Below are positions 979 through 11,289 of a stretch of 64,000 bases of DNA, in pieces. The position numbers were made by a program, and so were the translations under genes. The notes under the pieces were generated by a model that saw nothing but the letters and a program-made list of their open reading frames with translations, searched no databases and was not told where the DNA came from. Source of the stretch: a candidate division WOR-3 bacterium. Its GTDB lineage: Bacteria; Hydrothermota; Tepidihabitantia; Tepidihabitantales; Tepidihabitantaceae. Positions within the stretch are counted from its first letter, which is position 1; the number at the start of each line of letters is the position of its first letter. Location of the stretch: the NCBI GenBank assembly GCA_024653355.1, contig JANLFQ010000001.1, positions 704,576-768,575 of the forward strand. Reading direction: 5' to 3'.

Positions 979-1007
979 TCATCGGCAGTAACCGGCACTG
1001 CCGATGA
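979..1007 (-). terminator. Hairpin overlapping the end of the YVTN gene
   Basis: A perfect 11-bp inverted repeat (TCATCGGCAGT / ACTGCCGATGA) with a 7-nt loop includes the stop codon of the YVTN gene. On the minus strand no U-run follows it, so it may be a weak terminator or a 3'-end stabilising hairpin between two converging genes. Confidence 0.4.
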
Positions 1008-3903
1008 TGGTCACGGTCCCGGAATCGTAATTGGCAACATACACTTTGCCGTCCGTGGAGTTGGTGCACAGGGCAATCGGCCGCTGGCCGACGGGAATTG
1101 TTTTCCGTACCGAATTAGTAGCGCAATCAATCATATTGACCGTTTCTCCATCGTAGTTAGCACAGTAAAGTTTATCGACCCAACCAGCCCAAGCCAGACT
1201 CCGGGGATGAGTACCGACATTCACCGTCGTTACCAGAGAGTAATTCTGGGCATTGATGACAGAAACATTATTACTACCGGAGTTGGCAACATAGATGCGG
1301 TTGTCAACCGCATTGTAAGCAAGCGCCCAAGGTTCGCTGCCGACATTTATCGTCGTAATCACCGCCTGATTGTTACCGTTGATGACGCTTACTTTGCCGA
1401 AAAGTCGATTGGCAACTGTAACATTGCCCCGGGCATCGACCACCAGCGCACAGGGCTGATAATCAACGCTAACCGTACCGAGCACCTGATTGGTCGCACC
1501 GTCAATGACCGTTACACTGTTGCGCGCAAAGTTAGCGCAGTACACCTTGTTGTACACCGGGTTATAGACCAGCGCAATCGGGCTGGAATCAACCGCTATC
1601 GTCGTGATTATTTCATTAGTAGCACCATCAATTACCGTCACCTGGGCATTGCGATAGTTTGCGACATAGACGCGATTGTTTGTTGTATTAAAACACAACG
1701 CTTGGGGGAAACTGCCAACATTGACTGTCGTAAGCACCTGGTTCGTTGCACCATCAATTACCGAAACTGTCCCCCCGCCATAATTACTTACATAAATCCG
1801 GCCATTCGTTGGGTTAAGACACAGGTCATATGGGTTAGCACCAACCGAAATCGTTGCCGTAACCTCGTTGCGTGAACCATCAATAACCGAAACATTACCG
1901 CTGTTGTAATTAGCAACGAAAATCTTGTTATGCAAACTGTCCCAAAGCAGCGCCCGGGGTTTGGAGCCAACCGTGACCGTTGCCACTACCGTATCGGGTG
2001 TCCCACCGGTACCTGCAACGGTAAATGTTCCGCTTGTTCCTTCGCTTGTATGATTACCACAGAATGCCCGAACCCTGATTAGCGCATTGTTGGTTGTTGG
2101 CGGCGGTACTTGCCAGACAAAACTACCCGGCACTGTGGTCTTCCCTTGCCGCGACCAGTCCGTGCCGCCGTTACTGGAGTAGAAAATCACCGTTGACTCC
2201 ATCCCAAAGGTGCCTCCGGTCCAGGTAATGGTCTGTGTCGAACCAACGGTCCACCGCGCCCCGGGAGCAGGTGAAGTCACGGTAATCGGTGTGGGCGGCA
2301 ATGAGTCGTAAACAACATAGCGCTGGCTCGTCCCCACCGAAGAGTCTGCCCCAACATAAGCCCGGACCTGAACCCGGGCGTTATCGGTCGCAGGACCGGG
2401 AACGAACCAGGAGTAACTGCCTGAACTGGTTGCCCGGCCGTGACGAAGCCAGGTAACACCGTCATCGGTGGAGTAATAAATTGTAGTTGAGTCGGGCGCT
2501 GCCGGACCACCAACCCAGGTGATGGTTTGATTGGAGCCTTCGCGCCATCGTGTTTGTGAGTTCGGTTCGGTAATTGTTATTGCTGGCAGACCTTCAATCA
2601 CCCGAAAAGTAGCACTGAATCCGGTTGTAACCGAATCAAGACAGTAGGCGCGAACCCTGATCTTTGCCTGGTCTGTTACTGGTGCCGGCACGGTCCATAA
2701 AAATCTTCCGGGACGGGTTGTCTTGCCCTGTCGTGTCCAAACAAGGCCATTGTTGGTTGAATAGTGAATAACCGCTGAATCCATCCCGAGTAAAGTACCA
2801 CCGGTCCAGATAACCTCGTGGGTTGAACCGATGGTCCATTCCGACAGCGAATCGGGCGCAACGATTGTAATCGCTGAAGGCTTTCTCGTATCGTAAACCT
2901 CAAACTGTGCCGATGTTCCAAGCAAAGTGTCCCGGCCGATATAACGGCGCACCTGAATCCGGGCGCTGTTGGTTGGTGTCAGGTTAATCGGCAACGTCCA
3001 GGTATAACTATTGGGAGAGGTTGCTCGGTCAATACGCGTGGGCCAGGTAACACCGTTATTACTTGAATAGAAAAGCACCGTTGAGTCTCCTAACAATCCA
3101 CCAGTCCATCTAATCGTATAACTTGTCCCGCTACGCCATCTCGATGTATCGTTTGGTTCCACCACTCTCAATGCCGAACAGACTGAAAACTGCCATAATG
3201 GGCCAACCACCGTATCACCAACTTCATCGCGGGCAACCACATACCAGTAGTATGTTGAGTCGTACATCAAACCAGGCGGGCTGCAAAAAGTGTCTGAGAG
3301 ATTGCGAAAAACAATCGCTAAAGGCAGGCGCGTGCCGAGATAAACATCATAAACTACTGTATCACCTAAATCCGGGTCTCCGCCCCGCCAGGAAAGGCGG
3401 ACTCTTGGCAGTTGATTGATTGCACCACTTTCGGGCTGGGGACGATTAGGTACAAAAGGCAAAGTGTTTGCCCGCTTGGTTGTAAACTGATAGACTGGAC
3501 CCCAGGCGGTATCACCAAACCGGTCCCGGGCTAAAATTCGCCAGTAGTAAGATGTAAGAATTGCGAGATTATGGGGACGGTAGAATGTGTCTTTAATCCC
3601 GGTATCGCGCAATGCCGGCGGGTTTCCCGTTCCCAGATAGATGTCGTATCTTAACCTTTCACTGGTATCCGGGTGGGTGCACCGCCAGTGTAAAGTTATT
3701 CCGGTGTCAACATTTACCGCGCCACTCTCCGGCACAATCGGCACCGGTCGATTGGGCGGTTTGTCAAACGGATTTGCCCACTTTCGACAGGTACTGTTCC
3801 CCAACAGTACAACGATAGCCATGAACGCCAGTAGTGCGACTGCGCCCCAGCGCACCAACCTTCTTTTCGCCCGTTCTGCCACTCTTGTATCGCCTTCTTT
3901 CAT
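979..3903 (-). CDS. Membrane-anchored extracytoplasmic protein: two Fn3-like, four Kre9/Knh1-like domains and an 8-blade YVTN propeller
   Basis: This protein has 974 residues. A basic N-terminus and one hydrophobic helix (about 15-36) anchor it in the membrane. Two fibronectin-III-like domains follow (about 48-143 and 144-240; each contains a YDIYLG or YDVYLG strand). Next come four Kre9/Knh1-type repeats, each with a WTxGSTxxIxWTGG-like core (about 241-635). The C-terminal third has eight repeats of about 42 residues with VxVGxxPxAL, (V/I)YVANY and VSVIDGATN signatures, a YVTN beta-propeller. It is probably a surface binding or scaffold protein. Its start lies one base after the stop of the PEGA gene (TGATATG), so it is the last gene of the kinase-PEGA-YVTN operon. 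The ligand is unknown. Confidence 0.85.
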   Translation of the reverse strand: MKEGDTRVAERAKRRLVRWGAVALLAFMAIVVLLGNSTCRKWANPFDKPPNRPVPIVPESGAVNVDTGITLHWRCTHPDTSERLRYDIYLGTGNPPALRDTGIKDTFYRPHNLAILTSYYWRILARDRFGDTAWGPVYQFTTKRANTLPFVPNRPQPESGAINQLPRVRLSWRGGDPDLGDTVVYDVYLGTRLPLAIVFRNLSDTFCSPPGLMYDSTYYWYVVARDEVGDTVVGPLWQFSVCSALRVVEPNDTSRWRSGTSYTIRWTGGLLGDSTVLFYSSNNGVTWPTRIDRATSPNSYTWTLPINLTPTNSARIQVRRYIGRDTLLGTSAQFEVYDTRKPSAITIVAPDSLSEWTIGSTHEVIWTGGTLLGMDSAVIHYSTNNGLVWTRQGKTTRPGRFLWTVPAPVTDQAKIRVRAYCLDSVTTGFSATFRVIEGLPAITITEPNSQTRWREGSNQTITWVGGPAAPDSTTIYYSTDDGVTWLRHGRATSSGSYSWFVPGPATDNARVQVRAYVGADSSVGTSQRYVVYDSLPPTPITVTSPAPGARWTVGSTQTITWTGGTFGMESTVIFYSSNGGTDWSRQGKTTVPGSFVWQVPPPTTNNALIRVRAFCGNHTSEGTSGTFTVAGTGGTPDTVVATVTVGSKPRALLWDSLHNKIFVANYNSGNVSVIDGSRNEVTATISVGANPYDLCLNPTNGRIYVSNYGGGTVSVIDGATNQVLTTVNVGSFPQALCFNTTNNRVYVANYRNAQVTVIDGATNEIITTIAVDSSPIALVYNPVYNKVYCANFARNSVTVIDGATNQVLGTVSVDYQPCALVVDARGNVTVANRLFGKVSVINGNNQAVITTINVGSEPWALAYNAVDNRIYVANSGSNNVSVINAQNYSLVTTVNVGTHPRSLAWAGWVDKLYCANYDGETVNMIDCATNSVRKTIPVGQRPIALCTNSTDGKVYVANYDSGTVTIIGSAGYCR

Positions 3904-3904
3904 A

Positions 3905-4957
3905 TCACCACTTAACTACAAAATACATACCAATGCCCAGCGAACCAACTCCCAGCGCAACATTGCGAATCATATCCCAGCGCTCAGTTTCCTGGCGGTA
4001 ATTGACCGCATCTTCCTTTGTCGCCGCATTTTGATAAAGTCCATAACTTTGCTCCCCCATTATAGCGGCACCGGCACCTCCAGCAAGAAAGGCGATGCTA
4101 GCAATTAACACCGGCAACTGTCGTCGCGGTAAACGCTGCAGTGTCTCCCGAACATAGGTCGTCTCGCCCATCTTTACCTCGGCATAGCCCAGCCAGTCAA
4201 CATACCCTTGCTTTGAACACAGCACCGCATACCGGTCTGGTGCCAATCCAATCAGCAAATTACTTACCCCAATCTTTCTACCGTTGGCAAAAACCTCGGC
4301 ACCGGTCGGCTTTGTTTCCACGCTGAGAAACCCCCGGCCCTTTCCCATCTTCACCAGAACTCCAATCGGGCCGCTGCTGCTGACCTCAACTAATTTTGTT
4401 GCATCTTCATAACCGGAATAGCGGGCTAAAATCGATCGGGAACCAAAAGGTACCTTCGAAACAACCAGCCCGGTCTCGGTTGTCCTGCCCTTGTAAACCC
4501 CATCAATCCATATCTCGGCACCAACCGGGTCGGAAGTAATCACCAGTGTTGCCAATCGGGCGGTGATATTAAAACTCCCGTAATATGTTCGATATCCAGA
4601 ATAACGGGCCTCAACCGTATGTTTACCCACACTCAAATTGTCGATTTCTAATGGGGTCGTGCCCCGCTCCACATCATCGACTCTTACCGTTGCCCCGGAA
4701 GGTTGAGAAGTTATCCGGACACTATTGCCGGTAACATCAATATCTACTCGGAGCGCAGGCAAAGATGGCCTGTATTCAGGCTCGGGCAACTTCGCACCAC
4801 ACTTTTTGCAGAACTTGGCGTCGTCTCGATTAACCGTTCCGCAATTCGGACAGACCTTCTCCGCCCAGGCAATGGTGCACAAAAAAATCAAAGTCAATAT
4901 CAATACGGTCACGGCATGCCGGGAACCAACTCGTCTGTTCCTTCGCCTCTCACTCAT
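3905..4957 (-). CDS. Exported PEGA-domain protein with an N-terminal zinc ribbon
   Basis: This protein has 350 residues. A hydrophobic signal (about 15-32) is followed at once by a zinc ribbon, Cys36-X2-Cys39-X10-Cys50-X2-Cys53. Three PEGA beta-domains follow (about 70-270), recognisable from repeated motifs such as SQPSGATVRVDD, SDPVGAEIWIDG and TKPTGAEVFANG. The C-terminus has one or two further hydrophobic segments. PEGA domains are usually extracytoplasmic adaptor modules. A good AAGGAGG lies before the ATG. The gene starts 10 nt after the kinase-like gene and is followed after one base by the YVTN gene. A zinc ribbon exposed outside the cytoplasm is unusual, and it has the same spacing as the ribbon in the kinase-like protein. 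Confidence 0.85.
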   Translation of the reverse strand: MSERRRNRRVGSRHAVTVLILTLIFLCTIAWAEKVCPNCGTVNRDDAKFCKKCGAKLPEPEYRPSLPALRVDIDVTGNSVRITSQPSGATVRVDDVERGTTPLEIDNLSVGKHTVEARYSGYRTYYGSFNITARLATLVITSDPVGAEIWIDGVYKGRTTETGLVVSKVPFGSRSILARYSGYEDATKLVEVSSSGPIGVLVKMGKGRGFLSVETKPTGAEVFANGRKIGVSNLLIGLAPDRYAVLCSKQGYVDWLGYAEVKMGETTYVRETLQRLPRRQLPVLIASIAFLAGGAGAAIMGEQSYGLYQNAATKEDAVNYRQETERWDMIRNVALGVGSLGIGMYFVVKW

Positions 4958-4967
4958 TCAATCCTCC

Positions 4968-6233
4968 TTAATCTTCAAACCGGTAACCGCACCGGGTGCA
5001 AAATTGCGCGCCGGGTTCGCGCTTTGCTCCACACGCAGGACAGGTAGCCCGGCCCGCTGCCACTTTCAACTTCACACCGGTATGGGGTTTTAACTTTGCT
5101 CCGGCTCGGGGTTCAATCCCAATCACCACCCCGGTGCGATACTGGTCACTGTACTCCCGCACCACAACCACACTGTCCAATCCTATCTTGAGCAATTGAT
5201 TGCGTGCAACCGCTTCGGCAACACCAGTTACATCCGGTATTGAAACCAGCCCGGTGCTCAACCGTAGCTTTACCACCCCACCCTTTTTCATCTTGGTACC
5301 AGCAGATGGAATCTGCTCTGCCACCTTACCCAGCGCAAATGTGTCGTCTTTATCTTCAGCCAGTTCTACCCGAAAACCGGCATCCTCGAGCTTCTTCTGC
5401 GCCTCTGCCTGATAAACACCCTGCACATCGGGAATCGGTTTTCCCTGACCGCCGATTATTAGCCAGCTACCTACCGCGACCAAAATCAACCCCGCCAGGA
5501 CAATCCATACTAATGGACCGCGTCCTCTTTCCCGCGGCAGCGGTACGGCGGCAACAGGAGGTGCCGCTTTCGGCGGTGAAACGGGACGCGCCGTGGACAT
5601 GACCGACTTGGACACCGCAGCCGCAGGAGTTGACTCGGTTTGTCGAGGAGGCTGCGTCATCTTAATTGGTTCCGGGCGTGGCTGTTCCGAAGTAATTGGT
5701 GCCGGTTTTTTTTCTAACTCTTTAGGAATTACCGCCAGCAGGGCGGCACGAAAATCCTTCGCAGTTTGAAACCGCTCCTCAGGTTTTTTCGCCAATGCCT
5801 TCAGGATAACCTTTTCCAACTCCGGTGTGATTTCCGGCCGAATGGAACGAGGGGCAGGCGGCGGTTGTTCGATGTGCGCCCGAATCAAATCCGCTCCCAG
5901 TTCTGCCTCAAAAGGTGGCTTTCCAGTTGCCGCTTCGTAGAGAACCACACCCAACGAATAAAGGTCCGCCCGAGCATCAACACTCTTGCGCTGTGCTTTT
6001 TCCGGAGCGATGTACCGAGCGGTTCCGACCCGGGATACACCATAATCAATCAACCGCCACACCCCGTCTTCAACCTGAACGATTTTTTTGGGTTTAATGT
6101 CACCGTGCAGTCGGCCCTGGCTGTGGGCATGCGCCAGGTCGTCAAGAATAGAAACGAAAATATTTTCCAGCTCCGGGCTCGGAACCACCCGTCGTTCCGC
6201 AAGCAAATCAGCGAGTGTTTGCGCTCGCGCCAT
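4968..6233 (-). CDS. PASTA-domain Ser/Thr kinase homologue lacking the N-lobe, with a C-terminal zinc ribbon (probable pseudokinase)
   Basis: This protein has 421 residues. It begins at the kinase hinge/alpha-D region (TLADLLAERR) and has no glycine loop, no ATP-binding Lys and no alpha-C helix. An in-frame stop at 6267-6269 rules out an N-lobe in this ORF. The catalytic loop reads HGDIKPKK (residues 43-50): the Asp is kept, HRD is HGD, and the metal-binding Asn is Lys50. DFG is DYG (63-65), and the activation segment before RYIAPE is very short. A Pro-rich linker, a transmembrane helix (about 240-262), two PASTA domains (about 267-394) and a CX2CX10CX2C zinc ribbon (Cys398-Cys415) follow. 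It heads the operon with the PEGA and YVTN genes. A signalling or docking role rather than catalysis is inferred. There is no Shine-Dalgarno sequence before the ATG. Confidence 0.85.
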   Translation of the reverse strand: MARAQTLADLLAERRVVPSPELENIFVSILDDLAHAHSQGRLHGDIKPKKIVQVEDGVWRLIDYGVSRVGTARYIAPEKAQRKSVDARADLYSLGVVLYEAATGKPPFEAELGADLIRAHIEQPPPAPRSIRPEITPELEKVILKALAKKPEERFQTAKDFRAALLAVIPKELEKKPAPITSEQPRPEPIKMTQPPRQTESTPAAAVSKSVMSTARPVSPPKAAPPVAAVPLPRERGRGPLVWIVLAGLILVAVGSWLIIGGQGKPIPDVQGVYQAEAQKKLEDAGFRVELAEDKDDTFALGKVAEQIPSAGTKMKKGGVVKLRLSTGLVSIPDVTGVAEAVARNQLLKIGLDSVVVVREYSDQYRTGVVIGIEPRAGAKLKPHTGVKLKVAAGRATCPACGAKREPGAQFCTRCGYRFED

Positions 6234-6242
6234 CTTAATAAC

Positions 6243-6270
6243 AGGATAACAACAACTTAAGTAATGTCAA
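6243..6270 (-). promoter_or_regulatory. Promoter of the kinase-PEGA-YVTN operon
   Basis: TTGACA, a 16-nt spacer and TATCCT, with the -10 ending 9 nt before the ATG at 6233. No Shine-Dalgarno sequence is present, so the transcript should be nearly leaderless. Confidence 0.7.
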
Positions 6271-6288: not shown

Positions 6289-7956
6289 TTACCGCACTGC
6301 GCCGGGAGCAAAATCCGTAGTTGCTTTCCGAAGCAAATTGCGCCCCAGTGACGCATAAGGTGAACCGGGAAATTCCATAATGAGTCGCTCGATAGTTGCC
6401 CGAAATCGACTTTCATCTTTCAAACCCTGGCGGTAAATTTCTGCCTGCTCAAGGAGCGCCCGCGCTGCCCGTTCCCCTTTGGGAAATCGGACAAGCAAAG
6501 AGTCGAGAACTGTTAGCGCCGCGCGGTAGTTTCCTTCCTGGCGATAAATCTGTGATACAAGAAAGAAAGCATCCTGTGCCACCGCGTCGTTTCCCCGCAT
6601 CAACCCCTGTGCCTGTTTTAGGCTTATCTCGACCGCACCAGCATCAAGGTCAAGCATCGCCCGGGCAAGTTCTAAACCCCGCTCGCCACTCAATGTAAGC
6701 ATCCCCAGTTCCAGGGCATCATTCGCCAGCAAACTTTGCGGAAATCGAGCGTTAATCTCCCTGACGATTGCCCGTACCGAGTCAAACTTACCTTGATAAA
6801 AAAGTATCTTTGCCTGCAGAAACAGTACACTGTCATCAGGCGCAGTGATTTTTCTTAGCACCTGCTGGGCGCTGTCCAGTTGCCGCAAACCGACGAGCGC
6901 TGCGGCGAGTCCTAAAAGCGCCGCTCGATAATCGGGCTTTTTCTTCAAGACAGCGCGATATCCTTGAACCGCACTTTTAAAATCCCTCTTTTCCAACCGG
7001 GCGTACTCGGCGTATTCAAACCGCGCCGCAACACTGGTGTCTTGAGATAGAAGTGCCAGCGCCTCATCAATCCTACCCATCTTTCGCAGGACTCTTGCGG
7101 CATCGGCACCCAACTTCTGCTCCTGGTAAATCGCCAGTGCGGCACGCAACGCCCCTCTCTTTTCGCATCCCCGGGCAAAATTAACCATTTCACCACGGTT
7201 CAAACTGTTCTGGATTATTCGCACCGCACCCAGCTCATCGCCCGCACCAAGCGCAACCTCCGCCTGCGCCCTTAATCGAATCGTCTCGTCTTTGATTTTA
7301 CTTAAAACATTCAGCACCCTTTTAACCTCACCACTCCTTCCATAACTACCCAGCCGGTCAACAAATTTATTAAACCTTCGCGGCTCATAATTGACAATAT
7401 CAACCAACTTTTCTGCCGCCGTAACAAACCTGCCTTGCATTTCATATATTTCCAATAACTTCTCGGTGTACTCAACTCTAAACCCATCGCGCCGCAATCG
7501 CTCTTCAAGATACTGCGCCGCCCACCCCTTTTCACCACCCCGCAGGATTGCTTCCACCAGTTCCATAACCCGTCCGGGCCATTTCTCGAAAAATCTCTGC
7601 GCCCGCTCCCGCGCCGCACTCTTCCTTTTTAAGCCCAGAAGTGCCTCAATTATTCCCAATGTCACTTCTGCGTTATCGGGCACAACCCCTTCTACTTTCT
7701 GTAAAATTGAAAGCAGGGAGTCAAATCTGCCCAGCTGGCGGCTTACCCGCACCACACCCAGAAGCGCCTGCCGGTCCTCGGGATTTTTCTCCAGTGTCGT
7801 TTTGTAAACCGTCCATGCCTGCTCCAACTGCCCCGCCTGTTCCAGCATTTGACCCTTAAACCCATCCTGTGCAAACAACGGTGCTGAGAAAAGAATTAAC
7901 GGCAAAAAAAGAACGACTCCTGCCGCCCCACGCCTTGTCTTCCGGTTCTGCCTCAT
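6289..7956 (-). CDS. Exported tetratricopeptide-repeat protein
   Basis: This protein has 555 residues. A basic start and a hydrophobic core ending FSAPLFAQ form a cleavable signal peptide (about 1-29). The rest is helical repeat sequence, with recognisable TPR units near the start (LEQAWTVYKTTLEKNPEDRQAL), in the middle (YRAVLKKKPDYRAALLGLAAAL) and near the end (YRAALTVLDSLLVRFPKGERA). TPR proteins of this kind act as periplasmic scaffolds. Its ATG overlaps the stop of the DUF4175 gene by 4 nt, so the two are translationally coupled and probably work together. The partner and exact role are unknown. Confidence 0.8.
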   Translation of the reverse strand: MRQNRKTRRGAAGVVLFLPLILFSAPLFAQDGFKGQMLEQAGQLEQAWTVYKTTLEKNPEDRQALLGVVRVSRQLGRFDSLLSILQKVEGVVPDNAEVTLGIIEALLGLKRKSAARERAQRFFEKWPGRVMELVEAILRGGEKGWAAQYLEERLRRDGFRVEYTEKLLEIYEMQGRFVTAAEKLVDIVNYEPRRFNKFVDRLGSYGRSGEVKRVLNVLSKIKDETIRLRAQAEVALGAGDELGAVRIIQNSLNRGEMVNFARGCEKRGALRAALAIYQEQKLGADAARVLRKMGRIDEALALLSQDTSVAARFEYAEYARLEKRDFKSAVQGYRAVLKKKPDYRAALLGLAAALVGLRQLDSAQQVLRKITAPDDSVLFLQAKILFYQGKFDSVRAIVREINARFPQSLLANDALELGMLTLSGERGLELARAMLDLDAGAVEISLKQAQGLMRGNDAVAQDAFFLVSQIYRQEGNYRAALTVLDSLLVRFPKGERAARALLEQAEIYRQGLKDESRFRATIERLIMEFPGSPYASLGRNLLRKATTDFAPGAVR

Positions 7957-10900
7957 CGCTCCTCCAGCAGTTTCTCAAAATAGGAACGGATCAAAAGTTC
8001 ATACTCCCCTGGATAACCCTGCTTTAACGCCCGCAACAACTCCTCGCGCAAGACCTGATTGCGTTCGCCAAAATCTTCGGGCAGTTCCGGCCTTACCTCA
8101 ATCCGATAACCCTTTCCGGTCTCGGCTTGCCGCTCCTCCTTAAAACCCTCCTGGCGCAAACTCCGCTGGGCATCAAGCAAGCGGGAAAGAATTCCCTCCT
8201 GCCGTTCAATCAACTTTCGGTCAATCTGCAGTTCGGACAACGCCCGTTCCACCGCCTTCATCTCCTCAACAAGCTGGTCCAGTCTGCCGGTTAAGCCGGG
8301 TCTTTGCCCGCCCATTGACTGTAACAACCTCTCCAGTTGCTCGCGTAACGCCGCCTGCTGCGCGAGCAGTCTTTGCAACTGCTCCATCTGGCTGGCGCTC
8401 AAACCGGAAACCGGAATCGGTATCGGTATACCGGACATTCCGGCATTAATCGCCATTTGCTCCGAAGTCATCTGGGAAAGTTGTTCCAGTAGACTTTGCA
8501 ATCCGCTCTTCATTCCCCCACCCTGCGCCGCTGCGGCGGCGGCATCCAGCACCATTGCAACCGCCCGATTCAAACTCATCCGTGCCTGGGTCATCGCCCC
8601 CTTACTGTCACCAAAGTTACCCAGTGCCAGCATTTCGGCGGCACTCTTCATCTGGTTCATCGCTCGCGCAAGTTGCTGCCCCATCTCGGGTGAAACCAGC
8701 AGGGTTTGGGCACCAAGTGCCCCAATACTCTCCGCCACCAACCGCGTTGCCTCAAGCAATCCCATCTCCTCCGGGGCAAGATAAGCGGGATTTGTTTTCT
8801 CCCCAATTTCTTTTTCCAGCCCCTCCTGGGCTTGCGACACCCGCAACAGCGCATCAGCACCAGCGATTAGCCGGCGCATCACCTCCTCAGAACGACGGCG
8901 TTTTAACTCCTCGCTCAACCGGTCAAGACGCTCCGCCAGTTCCTGAAAAGAACGCTGCAGTTGCTCGCTCTTCTGTTGCGCGCTCCGCCGCTCGCCCTGA
9001 GCAAGTTGTCGCTTTAGCTCTTGCGCCAGCCGGTCCAGCCCCTCCTGCTCAATCTGCTTCTGCAGCGACCCAAGCGACTCCGCAACCGCCGGCTCAGCCA
9101 GTTCAACTGCCAGTTTTTCAAGTTCGGCGCGCAAACTGTCAAACTCGGCATTGGTTCTTGCCTGCTTCTCTGCCAGCTCCTCAGAAGCGCCCTTTTTTAG
9201 CTCTCGGCTCACTTCCTCCTGAGCCTTTTGCAACTCTTTTGCCTGCCGCGCCAGCGCTTCAAGCCGTTCCTCCTCCATTATGCGCTTTAACATCTCCAGG
9301 GCGCGCTCAATACCCGCCTTCAATTTCTCCTGCTCCAGTTGAACTTGTTCCAGCACCGGCCGGACATCGGGCGATTTTTCACCCAGTTTTTTCGCCAGTT
9401 GTTCCAGCGCCTTTTGCAGTTCAGGAGGCAAAAGGCGCGTTAGCAAATCCTGCAACTGCCCCAGCCGCTCCAGTGTCTCTTGGTCATAACTCATACCCTT
9501 GACCATCTCTTCAATCGTTCGCGCAATCTCCTCTTTCAAACCCTCAACCTGACTGAGAATTTGCTTTTGCTCCTCCAGGAGCCCTTCAAGCCGCTTCTTC
9601 TCCTCCCAGGACAGCTCGCGTGATTTTTTCAATTCCTCACCAATCCGGCTCAACTGAGCACCAATCTCTTCCTGCCTGGCGCCCAGTGGTGCCAGTTCCT
9701 CTTGAGTTGTCTGGGTTTTTTCCACTGCTGACGAATAAATTTCACTCATCGTCGGAAACCGCACCGCAAACACTTCACTCCTTGTTATCTTGGGACCTGA
9801 AACGATATCGTTATCGGTTACCTGAAGATAGTAGCGCAAAGCCTCGCCGGGTAAAAGCCCGGCTGAAGACAGGTCCCAGACATAAAAAGTGGTGTCTTCC
9901 CTTTGATGGGAAAATTTTTTCAGCCGTACGACCTCGTGGATACTGTCCTTGCCGTAGTGGAGTGATAAATCGCCCAGACCATAATCGTCAATACTGTTCA
10001 CCCCTAAAAGAACCTGCATGCTCACCGGCAGGTCAACATCCCGCCCTGGTGTAAACACCTTCACAAATGGCGCTTCATCAACCATCAACCGCAACCTGAC
10101 CCGGGCTACTGTCTGAATTGCACCCCCCGCCGGTGCCAGCTCCAGCGCCATCTCGCCCTCGTTCCGCACCGTAAAACGGGCTCGAAAGTGGGTGGGCTTT
10201 TGCGCATCAACAGCAACCGCCACCGTCTCGGACCGCAGAACCAGCCTTCCCCTCTCAACCGGTTGACTTGCCTCAGCATCAAGCGTCACCTGCGTTCCCT
10301 TCAGTAGGAGTAACTCATCTCCCTTTATCTCGCTCGCCTGTAGATTGGCATACGAGGGCGGCTGACATTGAAAGACCATTCGGCGCAGGGTTAAGGGTTC
10401 AATAAGCCCAACCCGAAACCAGCCCGAACTTTGGTTCAGAACCCGAAATCGGTAACTCATTCCCTGCTGAACGGCAAACTGTGCCCTAACGCTATCTCCC
10501 TTCATTACCATAAACCGATGCTTCCCATCCTGTTCTTTTATCTCCATCTTCACGCGGCGGAAAATACCGGCGGGCTGCACCCGGCAGGAAAAGGTCACAA
10601 CATCACCGCTCACCACCACGGTATCACCGGGCTCAACCGCAAACACCACCTTTAATCGATGCGGGAAAAATGCGTTCTGCAATCCGATATCAGCCCTCGC
10701 GCCGCCTATCGAAATAAACCCCAGAAGTAAACCCCATCCCAATAACGCAACCATGCCACAGAGGAAAACCCTCTTTCCACAAGAGACTCCCCGCAGGCGT
10801 TGCCCGCTTAACAACTGCTCAACCTGTGACACTGCAGCATCTCTCAACTCCCGCGAGTACCCCTCAACACCCTCCTGATAGCGCGCCAGTTCTAAACCGG

Positions 10901-11174
10901 CAAAAAGCCTTCCCCGCAACTGTGGATTAACACGCTCCATCTTGTAGGCAACCGCCTTAACACCAACCTCACTAACCCAGACCGGGACAAAATAAATCAG
11001 CGGCACCAAAAACAAAAGAACCACCCAGCCCGAAAGGAAAAAGGCGGTGCAGAAAAAAGCCCCGAGGGCAAATAGCCCGATGGTTAAAAGCAAAACCGAC
11101 ACCAAAAAGTTAACAAACACCATCCGTTGAACGCGGCTTATTGCCATCTCAAGAAGAGTCGTCGTGCGTTTCAT
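7953..11174 (-). CDS. DUF4175-family membrane protein with a very long coiled-coil tail
   Basis: About 1073 residues from the ATG at 11174 (MKRTTTLLEM). The open frame extends to a TTG at 11201, but the ATG fits better. Two hydrophobic helices near the N-terminus and a third around residue 140 are followed by extracytoplasmic beta-rich sequence (PGDTVVVSGDVVTFSC, VTDNDIVSGPK). Several hundred Glu/Gln/Leu/Arg-rich residues follow with strong coiled-coil character, then a Gly/Met-rich stretch and a short C-terminal domain (RPELPEDFGERNQVLREELL) typical of the DUF4175 family. The family has no assigned function. It is coupled by a 4-nt overlap to the exported TPR gene. Confidence 0.8.
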   Translation of the reverse strand: MKRTTTLLEMAISRVQRMVFVNFLVSVLLLTIGLFALGAFFCTAFFLSGWVVLLFLVPLIYFVPVWVSEVGVKAVAYKMERVNPQLRGRLFAGLELARYQEGVEGYSRELRDAAVSQVEQLLSGQRLRGVSCGKRVFLCGMVALLGWGLLLGFISIGGARADIGLQNAFFPHRLKVVFAVEPGDTVVVSGDVVTFSCRVQPAGIFRRVKMEIKEQDGKHRFMVMKGDSVRAQFAVQQGMSYRFRVLNQSSGWFRVGLIEPLTLRRMVFQCQPPSYANLQASEIKGDELLLLKGTQVTLDAEASQPVERGRLVLRSETVAVAVDAQKPTHFRARFTVRNEGEMALELAPAGGAIQTVARVRLRLMVDEAPFVKVFTPGRDVDLPVSMQVLLGVNSIDDYGLGDLSLHYGKDSIHEVVRLKKFSHQREDTTFYVWDLSSAGLLPGEALRYYLQVTDNDIVSGPKITRSEVFAVRFPTMSEIYSSAVEKTQTTQEELAPLGARQEEIGAQLSRIGEELKKSRELSWEEKKRLEGLLEEQKQILSQVEGLKEEIARTIEEMVKGMSYDQETLERLGQLQDLLTRLLPPELQKALEQLAKKLGEKSPDVRPVLEQVQLEQEKLKAGIERALEMLKRIMEEERLEALARQAKELQKAQEEVSRELKKGASEELAEKQARTNAEFDSLRAELEKLAVELAEPAVAESLGSLQKQIEQEGLDRLAQELKRQLAQGERRSAQQKSEQLQRSFQELAERLDRLSEELKRRRSEEVMRRLIAGADALLRVSQAQEGLEKEIGEKTNPAYLAPEEMGLLEATRLVAESIGALGAQTLLVSPEMGQQLARAMNQMKSAAEMLALGNFGDSKGAMTQARMSLNRAVAMVLDAAAAAAQGGGMKSGLQSLLEQLSQMTSEQMAINAGMSGIPIPIPVSGLSASQMEQLQRLLAQQAALREQLERLLQSMGGQRPGLTGRLDQLVEEMKAVERALSELQIDRKLIERQEGILSRLLDAQRSLRQEGFKEERQAETGKGYRIEVRPELPEDFGERNQVLREELLRALKQGYPGEYELLIRSYFEKLLEER

Positions 11175-11289
11175 AAAACCCAACTTAAATAGTAGCCCCA
11201 AACCTCTGACAAGGCAACATCAACCGCTTAGTAATATCTAATTACTTCCCAACCGTGCTGCGCAAGCGCTAAACACTCTGCCTCGCAAC

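Follow-up and report, generated by a model that had tools for sequence, protein, structure and literature searches.

Gene K, carried by a stretch of 64,000 nucleotides (the window) from a candidate division WOR-3 bacterium, was found to encode a PASTA membrane protein in which only the C-lobe of the kinase domain is present. As judged from its sequence, K is intact and has the look of an expressed PASTA receptor; an assembly error and a pseudogene are both ruled out. With a probability of about 0.6 it is a stand-alone C-lobe, anchored in the membrane, on which other proteins of an envelope complex dock without catalysis.

Architecture and Structure of the Truncated Kinase

The coordinates given for K by the initial annotation were borne out (421 aa, minus strand; Table 1), as was its central claim, the absence of the whole N-lobe. 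The Pfam Pkinase profile was aligned with K only over positions 81-254 of 263, with strands 1-5, helix C and the hinge absent, the alignment with NCBIfam PknB_PASTA_kin began only at profile position 92, and nothing was found upstream within the ORF. K scored 246.4 bits against NF033483, below the curated cut-off of 450. The in-frame stop reported upstream at 6267 was found as a TGA at 6267-6269, and the gene upstream, C, presented TPR matches and no kinase match in Pfam. The order of the transmembrane helix followed by PASTA domains, according to Pfam and the model, is that of the PASTA Ser/Thr kinases; in the search of the window's own genome (G000, 98% complete; G001 and the following numbers are relatives) PASTA domain 2 was placed at G000:C1:709633-709821. 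The C-terminal zinc ribbon of K and the conserved gene cluster around it had been overlooked in the initial annotation.

Table 1. Genes of the cluster and features of the K protein, in window positions.
Feature	Position	Strand	Description	Basis
Gene A	979..3903	(-)	Ig-like and YVTN beta-propeller protein; after B in most K genomes	Pfam/NCBIfam, synteny
Gene B	3905..4957	(-)	Signal-peptide-like start, zinc ribbon, PEGA domains, hydrophobic C-terminus	Pfam, orthologue starts
Gene K	4968..6233	(-)	421 aa, PASTA protein with kinase C-lobe only	ORF, Pfam/NCBIfam, same-architecture orthologues
Zinc ribbon of K	4977..5051	(-)	C-terminal, residues ~395-419, four Cys	PF13240/PF13248
PASTA domain 2	5061..5246	(-)	Residues ~330-391	Pfam PF03793, two stretches
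PASTA domain 1	5253..5435	(-)	Residues 267-327	Pfam PF03793
Transmembrane helix	5445..5519	(-)	Residues ~239-263	Hydrophobic run after basic residues; model helix 240-261
Linker	5520..5729	(-)	Pro/Ala-rich, disordered, residues ~169-238	pLDDT mostly <60; 22% mean identity
Kinase C-lobe	5730..6233	(-)	Residues 1-168, from helix D through helix I; N-lobe and hinge missing	Pfam, AlphaFold, Foldseek
Activation segment	6009..6038	(-)	Shortened, residues 66-75	Length from DFG Gly to APE Pro
DYG	6039..6047	(-)	DFG motif, residues 63-65	Sequence, clade alignment
Lys50	6084..6086	(-)	Catalytic Asn position	Sequence, clade alignment
HGD	6099..6107	(-)	HRD motif, residues 43-45	Sequence
Gene C	6289..7956	(-)	TPR protein encoded upstream of K; predates K at the locus	Pfam, synteny
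Gene D	7953..11201	(-)	Large membrane/coiled-coil protein, weak DUF4175 match	Found across the order

A structure prediction of the C-lobe, as the initial annotation had proposed, gave a high-confidence, PknB-like model. The pLDDT values of the C-lobe blocks were mostly 91-99, with 81 at residues 1-10 and 83 at residues 61-70, the PASTA domains were also predicted confidently and the linker was disordered. The best PDB matches found by Foldseek were structures of Mycobacterium tuberculosis PknB, with an rmsd of ~1-2 Å over ~168 columns. Since the alignment behind the model consisted mostly of full-length kinases, which may bias AlphaFold toward a kinase-like C-lobe, this result speaks for compatibility with the fold only and not for the stability of the isolated lobe.

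The substitutions noted earlier (HGD, Lys50 for Asn, DYG) are all present in K and extend to its relatives. Among the 14 members of the K clade, the catalytic Asn position is occupied by Lys (8), Arg (4), His (1) and Asn (1), and the DFG Asp position by D (8), G (3), E (2) and R (1), whereas the 45 full-length relatives compared present Asn and Asp, respectively, in 45/45 cases. The HRD Arg is changed to Gly or Leu in 11 of the 14 members and is retained in the others, and the HRD Asp is invariant. The very short activation segment was likewise confirmed: the stretch from the DFG Gly to the APE Pro counts 13 residues in the members (19 in one of them) versus 23-36 in the 45 full-length relatives, so that the segment of the clade has about half the usual length. 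Residues of the fold, namely H43, D45, G65, P77, E78, D90 and R154, are kept across the clade, and the four Cys of the zinc ribbon are invariant in 14/14 members. Most full kinases have hydrophobic residues at positions 41 and 53, most K members polar ones, and position 59 is now aromatic; by analogy with general kinase structure, these three positions may represent the resurfaced former interface with the N-lobe. With the N-lobe gone the ATP site cannot form, so that K should not transfer phosphate; it should be non-catalytic and would probably be inactive in the test tube.

Orthologues and Origin of the Truncation

The search for relatives with the same truncation, another suggestion of the initial annotation, yielded 13 full-length orthologues from one WOR-3 family, distributed over seven genera (that of the window included), with identities from 80 to ~39% and the same part missing. 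All share the start position of K and have a stop upstream; the start is identical in the separate assemblies of G001, G002, G006 and G010, with no internal stops. In G011 (L009) a long read-through precedes the K start, and no Pfam N-lobe match was found in it. In addition, G009 carries a 44-residue piece of K at a contig end, beside B. In two genomes of the same family, G013 and G017, K and B are missing and D and C present; the contig of G014 ends within C.

A profile built from the 14 K sequences recovered its members with 545-640 bits, or 295-306 bits for two-piece hits, and the next-best genome with 167 bits; no other strong match to this profile was found among 147 genomes of the phylum. 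A GTDB-wide scan with six short peptide patterns, from which distant members may escape, returned two full-length members only, both from this family, and the plasmid records yielded PASTA kinases only, all with less than 60% identity. An N-lobe was present in all 81 outside relatives with a readable upstream part (of 84; L051 was masked and L070 and L089 were cut), 50 of these calls being made by motif pattern and 31 by reading the sequence; in L087 the N-lobe is present with a degenerate glycine loop. The next-best profile hits within the class also possess N-lobes. In the tree, the 14 K members formed one clade (support 100/100, to which the shortened segment may contribute, the bootstrap being not fully settled), with full-length PASTA kinases from the class as its neighbours. 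These sequence comparisons indicate that the whole N-lobe was lost once, in the ancestor of the WOR-3 family, from a full-length PASTA kinase.

Selection on the Parts of K

Values of dN/dS, obtained by the Nei-Gojobori method for the single pair G000/G001 (dS ~0.9 across the C-lobe), were lowest for the C-lobe (0.045), followed by the zinc ribbon (0.061), PASTA domains (0.130), linker (0.172) and transmembrane helix (0.65). The mean pairwise identity among the 14 members was 70% for the zinc ribbon, 55% for the C-lobe, 39% for the PASTA domains, 27% for the transmembrane helix and 22% for the linker. Kinase domains are usually better conserved than PASTA domains, so that this ranking alone is not special; the telling point is the tight constraint on a half that lacks its catalytic residues. 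Constraint being strongest on the zinc ribbon and on what remains of the C-lobe, the half-kinase is itself maintained by selection. The initial annotation had placed the emphasis on the PASTA and transmembrane regions, which are indeed present, but the strongest constraint lies elsewhere.

Gene Neighbourhood

All five genes of the cluster are on the same strand, in the order D, C, K, B, A; D overlaps C by 4 bp, and the gaps that follow measure 55, 10 and 1 bp. D occurs across the order, mostly followed by a TPR gene that resembles C and without K-B-A. The K-B-A genes follow D-C in nine genomes and are separate from D-C in G005 and G012. Orthologues of B were found in the 15 genomes with K (the G009 fragment counted) and in no others, and B adjoins K wherever the contig permits. 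The zinc ribbon of B (residues ~33-58) stands directly behind the signal-peptide-like start, and charge rules together with this signal peptide predict that the zinc ribbons of both K and B are located outside the membrane, an unusual side for this motif. The zinc ribbon stands at the end of K and near the start of B, and the two mostly match different halves of the double zinc ribbon profile of Pfam, inconsistently: K matched the second half in 6/6 cases, and B the first half in 4/6 and the second in 2/6. A double zinc ribbon split between the two proteins was considered and, given the inconsistent halves of B, not established.

Other Signalling Genes of the Genome

The only other Hanks kinase (Pkinase) match in G000 is a protein of 1766 aa (L117:2346-7643; G000:C3, about 105846-111143) composed of kinase, AAA, TPR, GAF, sigma-54 activator and Fis-type HTH regions, relatives of which, with ~1750 aa, occur in many genomes of the family. 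Its catalytic Asn is replaced by His (HCDLKPEH), as it is in G001, G002, G003 and G005, so that the protein may be inactive too; the counterpart kinase keeps the Asn in G004, G009, G013 and G016, the four genus-g3 genomes examined. Genome searches of G000 returned no FHA match and no PP2C_2 match, PP2C_2 being the only phosphatase family searched. In the family member G005, genes of the PP2C-like, FHA-like and full-length PASTA kinase types lie close together (L118). The signalling set appears to have been lost in the lineage of the window.

A second PASTA membrane protein of 256 aa, with three PASTA domains and no kinase domain, is encoded in G000 at L152:891-1661 (G000:C1:474891-475661). Its gene sits between fmt-like and rpe-like genes, the interval that prkC occupies in Bacillus. 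With K truncated and this protein kinase-less, both PASTA membrane proteins of G000 are without a complete kinase. Three transpeptidase (PBP) genes are present in G000, which makes it likely that there is peptidoglycan for the PASTA domains to meet.

Proposed Role and Alternative Explanations

The strong selection on the remaining half across the family makes it most likely that the C-lobe serves for docking and not as an enzyme. Catalytic loss and retention under selection, as read by the initial annotation, are both strongly supported at the level of sequence; as it further proposed, K may have been kept to sense or dock. We infer a topology in which the C-lobe lies in the cytoplasm, held by the single transmembrane helix, and would dock proteins through the surfaces by which Hanks kinases contact their substrates and partners. 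The PASTA pair would be outside, probably contacting cell-wall material, the zinc ribbon of K would probably touch the co-inherited zinc-ribbon/PEGA protein B, and the propeller protein A may belong to the same envelope assembly. B as the partner, together with the docking role, is the best-supported guess, although the co-occurrence of K and B could reflect common ancestry and linkage instead of contact, and G013 and G017 manage without both genes. It has somewhat better than an even chance of being correct that a kinase C-lobe became a free-standing domain here, the ATP half being removed, the exposed face changed and the rest kept for docking, in a genome in which no catalytically complete Hanks kinase was found.

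It is unlikely that the C-lobe modulates a real kinase by pairing with the 1766-aa protein and relaying an envelope signal to it. That protein is the sole other Pkinase match and has relatives in many family genomes, and C-lobe contacts are frequent in kinase dimers such as those of PknB, but it is not linked to K and its own catalytic Asn is replaced. A newly gained binding or enzymatic activity, such as a site for a small molecule or cation in the old catalytic cleft with Lys or Arg replacing the Asn, seems rather improbable: the invariant HRD Asp and the basic residue at the Asn site in 13/14 members suggest that the cleft is not random, yet the nucleotide-binding half is gone, the DFG Asp varies among D, G, E and R, and the HRD Asp also plays a structural role. 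That the outside part does the work, with the C-lobe as a mere cytoplasmic anchor or spacer, would agree with the intact PASTA domains and zinc ribbon and with the kinase-less second PASTA protein; it is made similarly improbable by a constraint on the C-lobe that exceeds that on the PASTA domains and by conserved residues such as R73 and D32, which a spacer would not need.

A split kinase completed by an N-lobe on a separate polypeptide is very improbable; the metal-binding Asn has been lost as well, no supporting evidence was found, and an N-lobe query of G000 retrieved only the N-lobe of the 1766-aa kinase itself. An artefact, whether an N-lobe hidden by a frameshift or a decaying pseudogene, can practically be dismissed. 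The gap between C and K leaves, with 55 bp, too little room for an N-lobe, and orthologues in separate assemblies begin at the same point, which refutes the frameshift that the initial annotation had raised against its own reading; the closest homologues, which it had thought might carry a complete N-lobe at the locus, are truncated likewise. The low dN/dS and the lack of internal stops rule out a pseudogene.

Comparison with Known Kinases and Pseudokinases

K shares the C-lobe fold and the order of linker, transmembrane helix and PASTA domains with the PASTA Ser/Thr kinases (PknB, PrkC, StkP, Stk1; NF033483); PknB is its best match in sequence and fold, and the tree places it beside PASTA kinases from its own class. 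It differs from them in having no N-lobe (glycine loop and VAIK Lys included), a replaced Asn, a half-length activation segment and an extra zinc ribbon. K descends from PASTA kinases yet fails their definition.

Among the pseudokinases, EssB/YukC of type VII secretion is a membrane protein with an attenuated activation loop, which serves as a scaffold and binds no ATP (PMC9600267, PMC12599244), its glycine-rich region being degraded but present (PMC12599244). A membrane anchor, a cytoplasmic kinase-like part, a domain outside and a reduced activation loop recur in K; EssB/YukC, however, has no PASTA domains and acts with T7SS genes, whereas the neighbours of K are TPR, PEGA, propeller and DUF4175-like genes. 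By analogy, EssB/YukC would be the closest functional counterpart; K itself falls outside the EssB/YukC family. The pseudokinases MviN/ActPs3 have degraded catalytic motifs and control the cell wall by recruiting another protein, the FHA protein FhaA, with the N-lobe kept as a dimer interface (PMC12599244). Degraded motifs are common to them and K, but K has no N-lobe and its genome no FHA match. The bacterial pseudokinases of the same review were described with both lobes, the N-lobe being sometimes degraded (PMC12599244); of these features K presents the kinase fold and the degraded motifs, in the C-lobe only, and not the N-lobe. No case of a natural kinase without an N-lobe was found in the open-access literature.

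How much of the fold is needed for a non-catalytic job is hard to tell from two-lobed pseudokinases, and here evolution has made the deletion. The K family thus offers a minimal scaffold lobe, on which a binding surface could be mapped without a catalytic background. In this organism, most of Hanks signalling seems to have been dismantled, with a receptor-like remnant retained.
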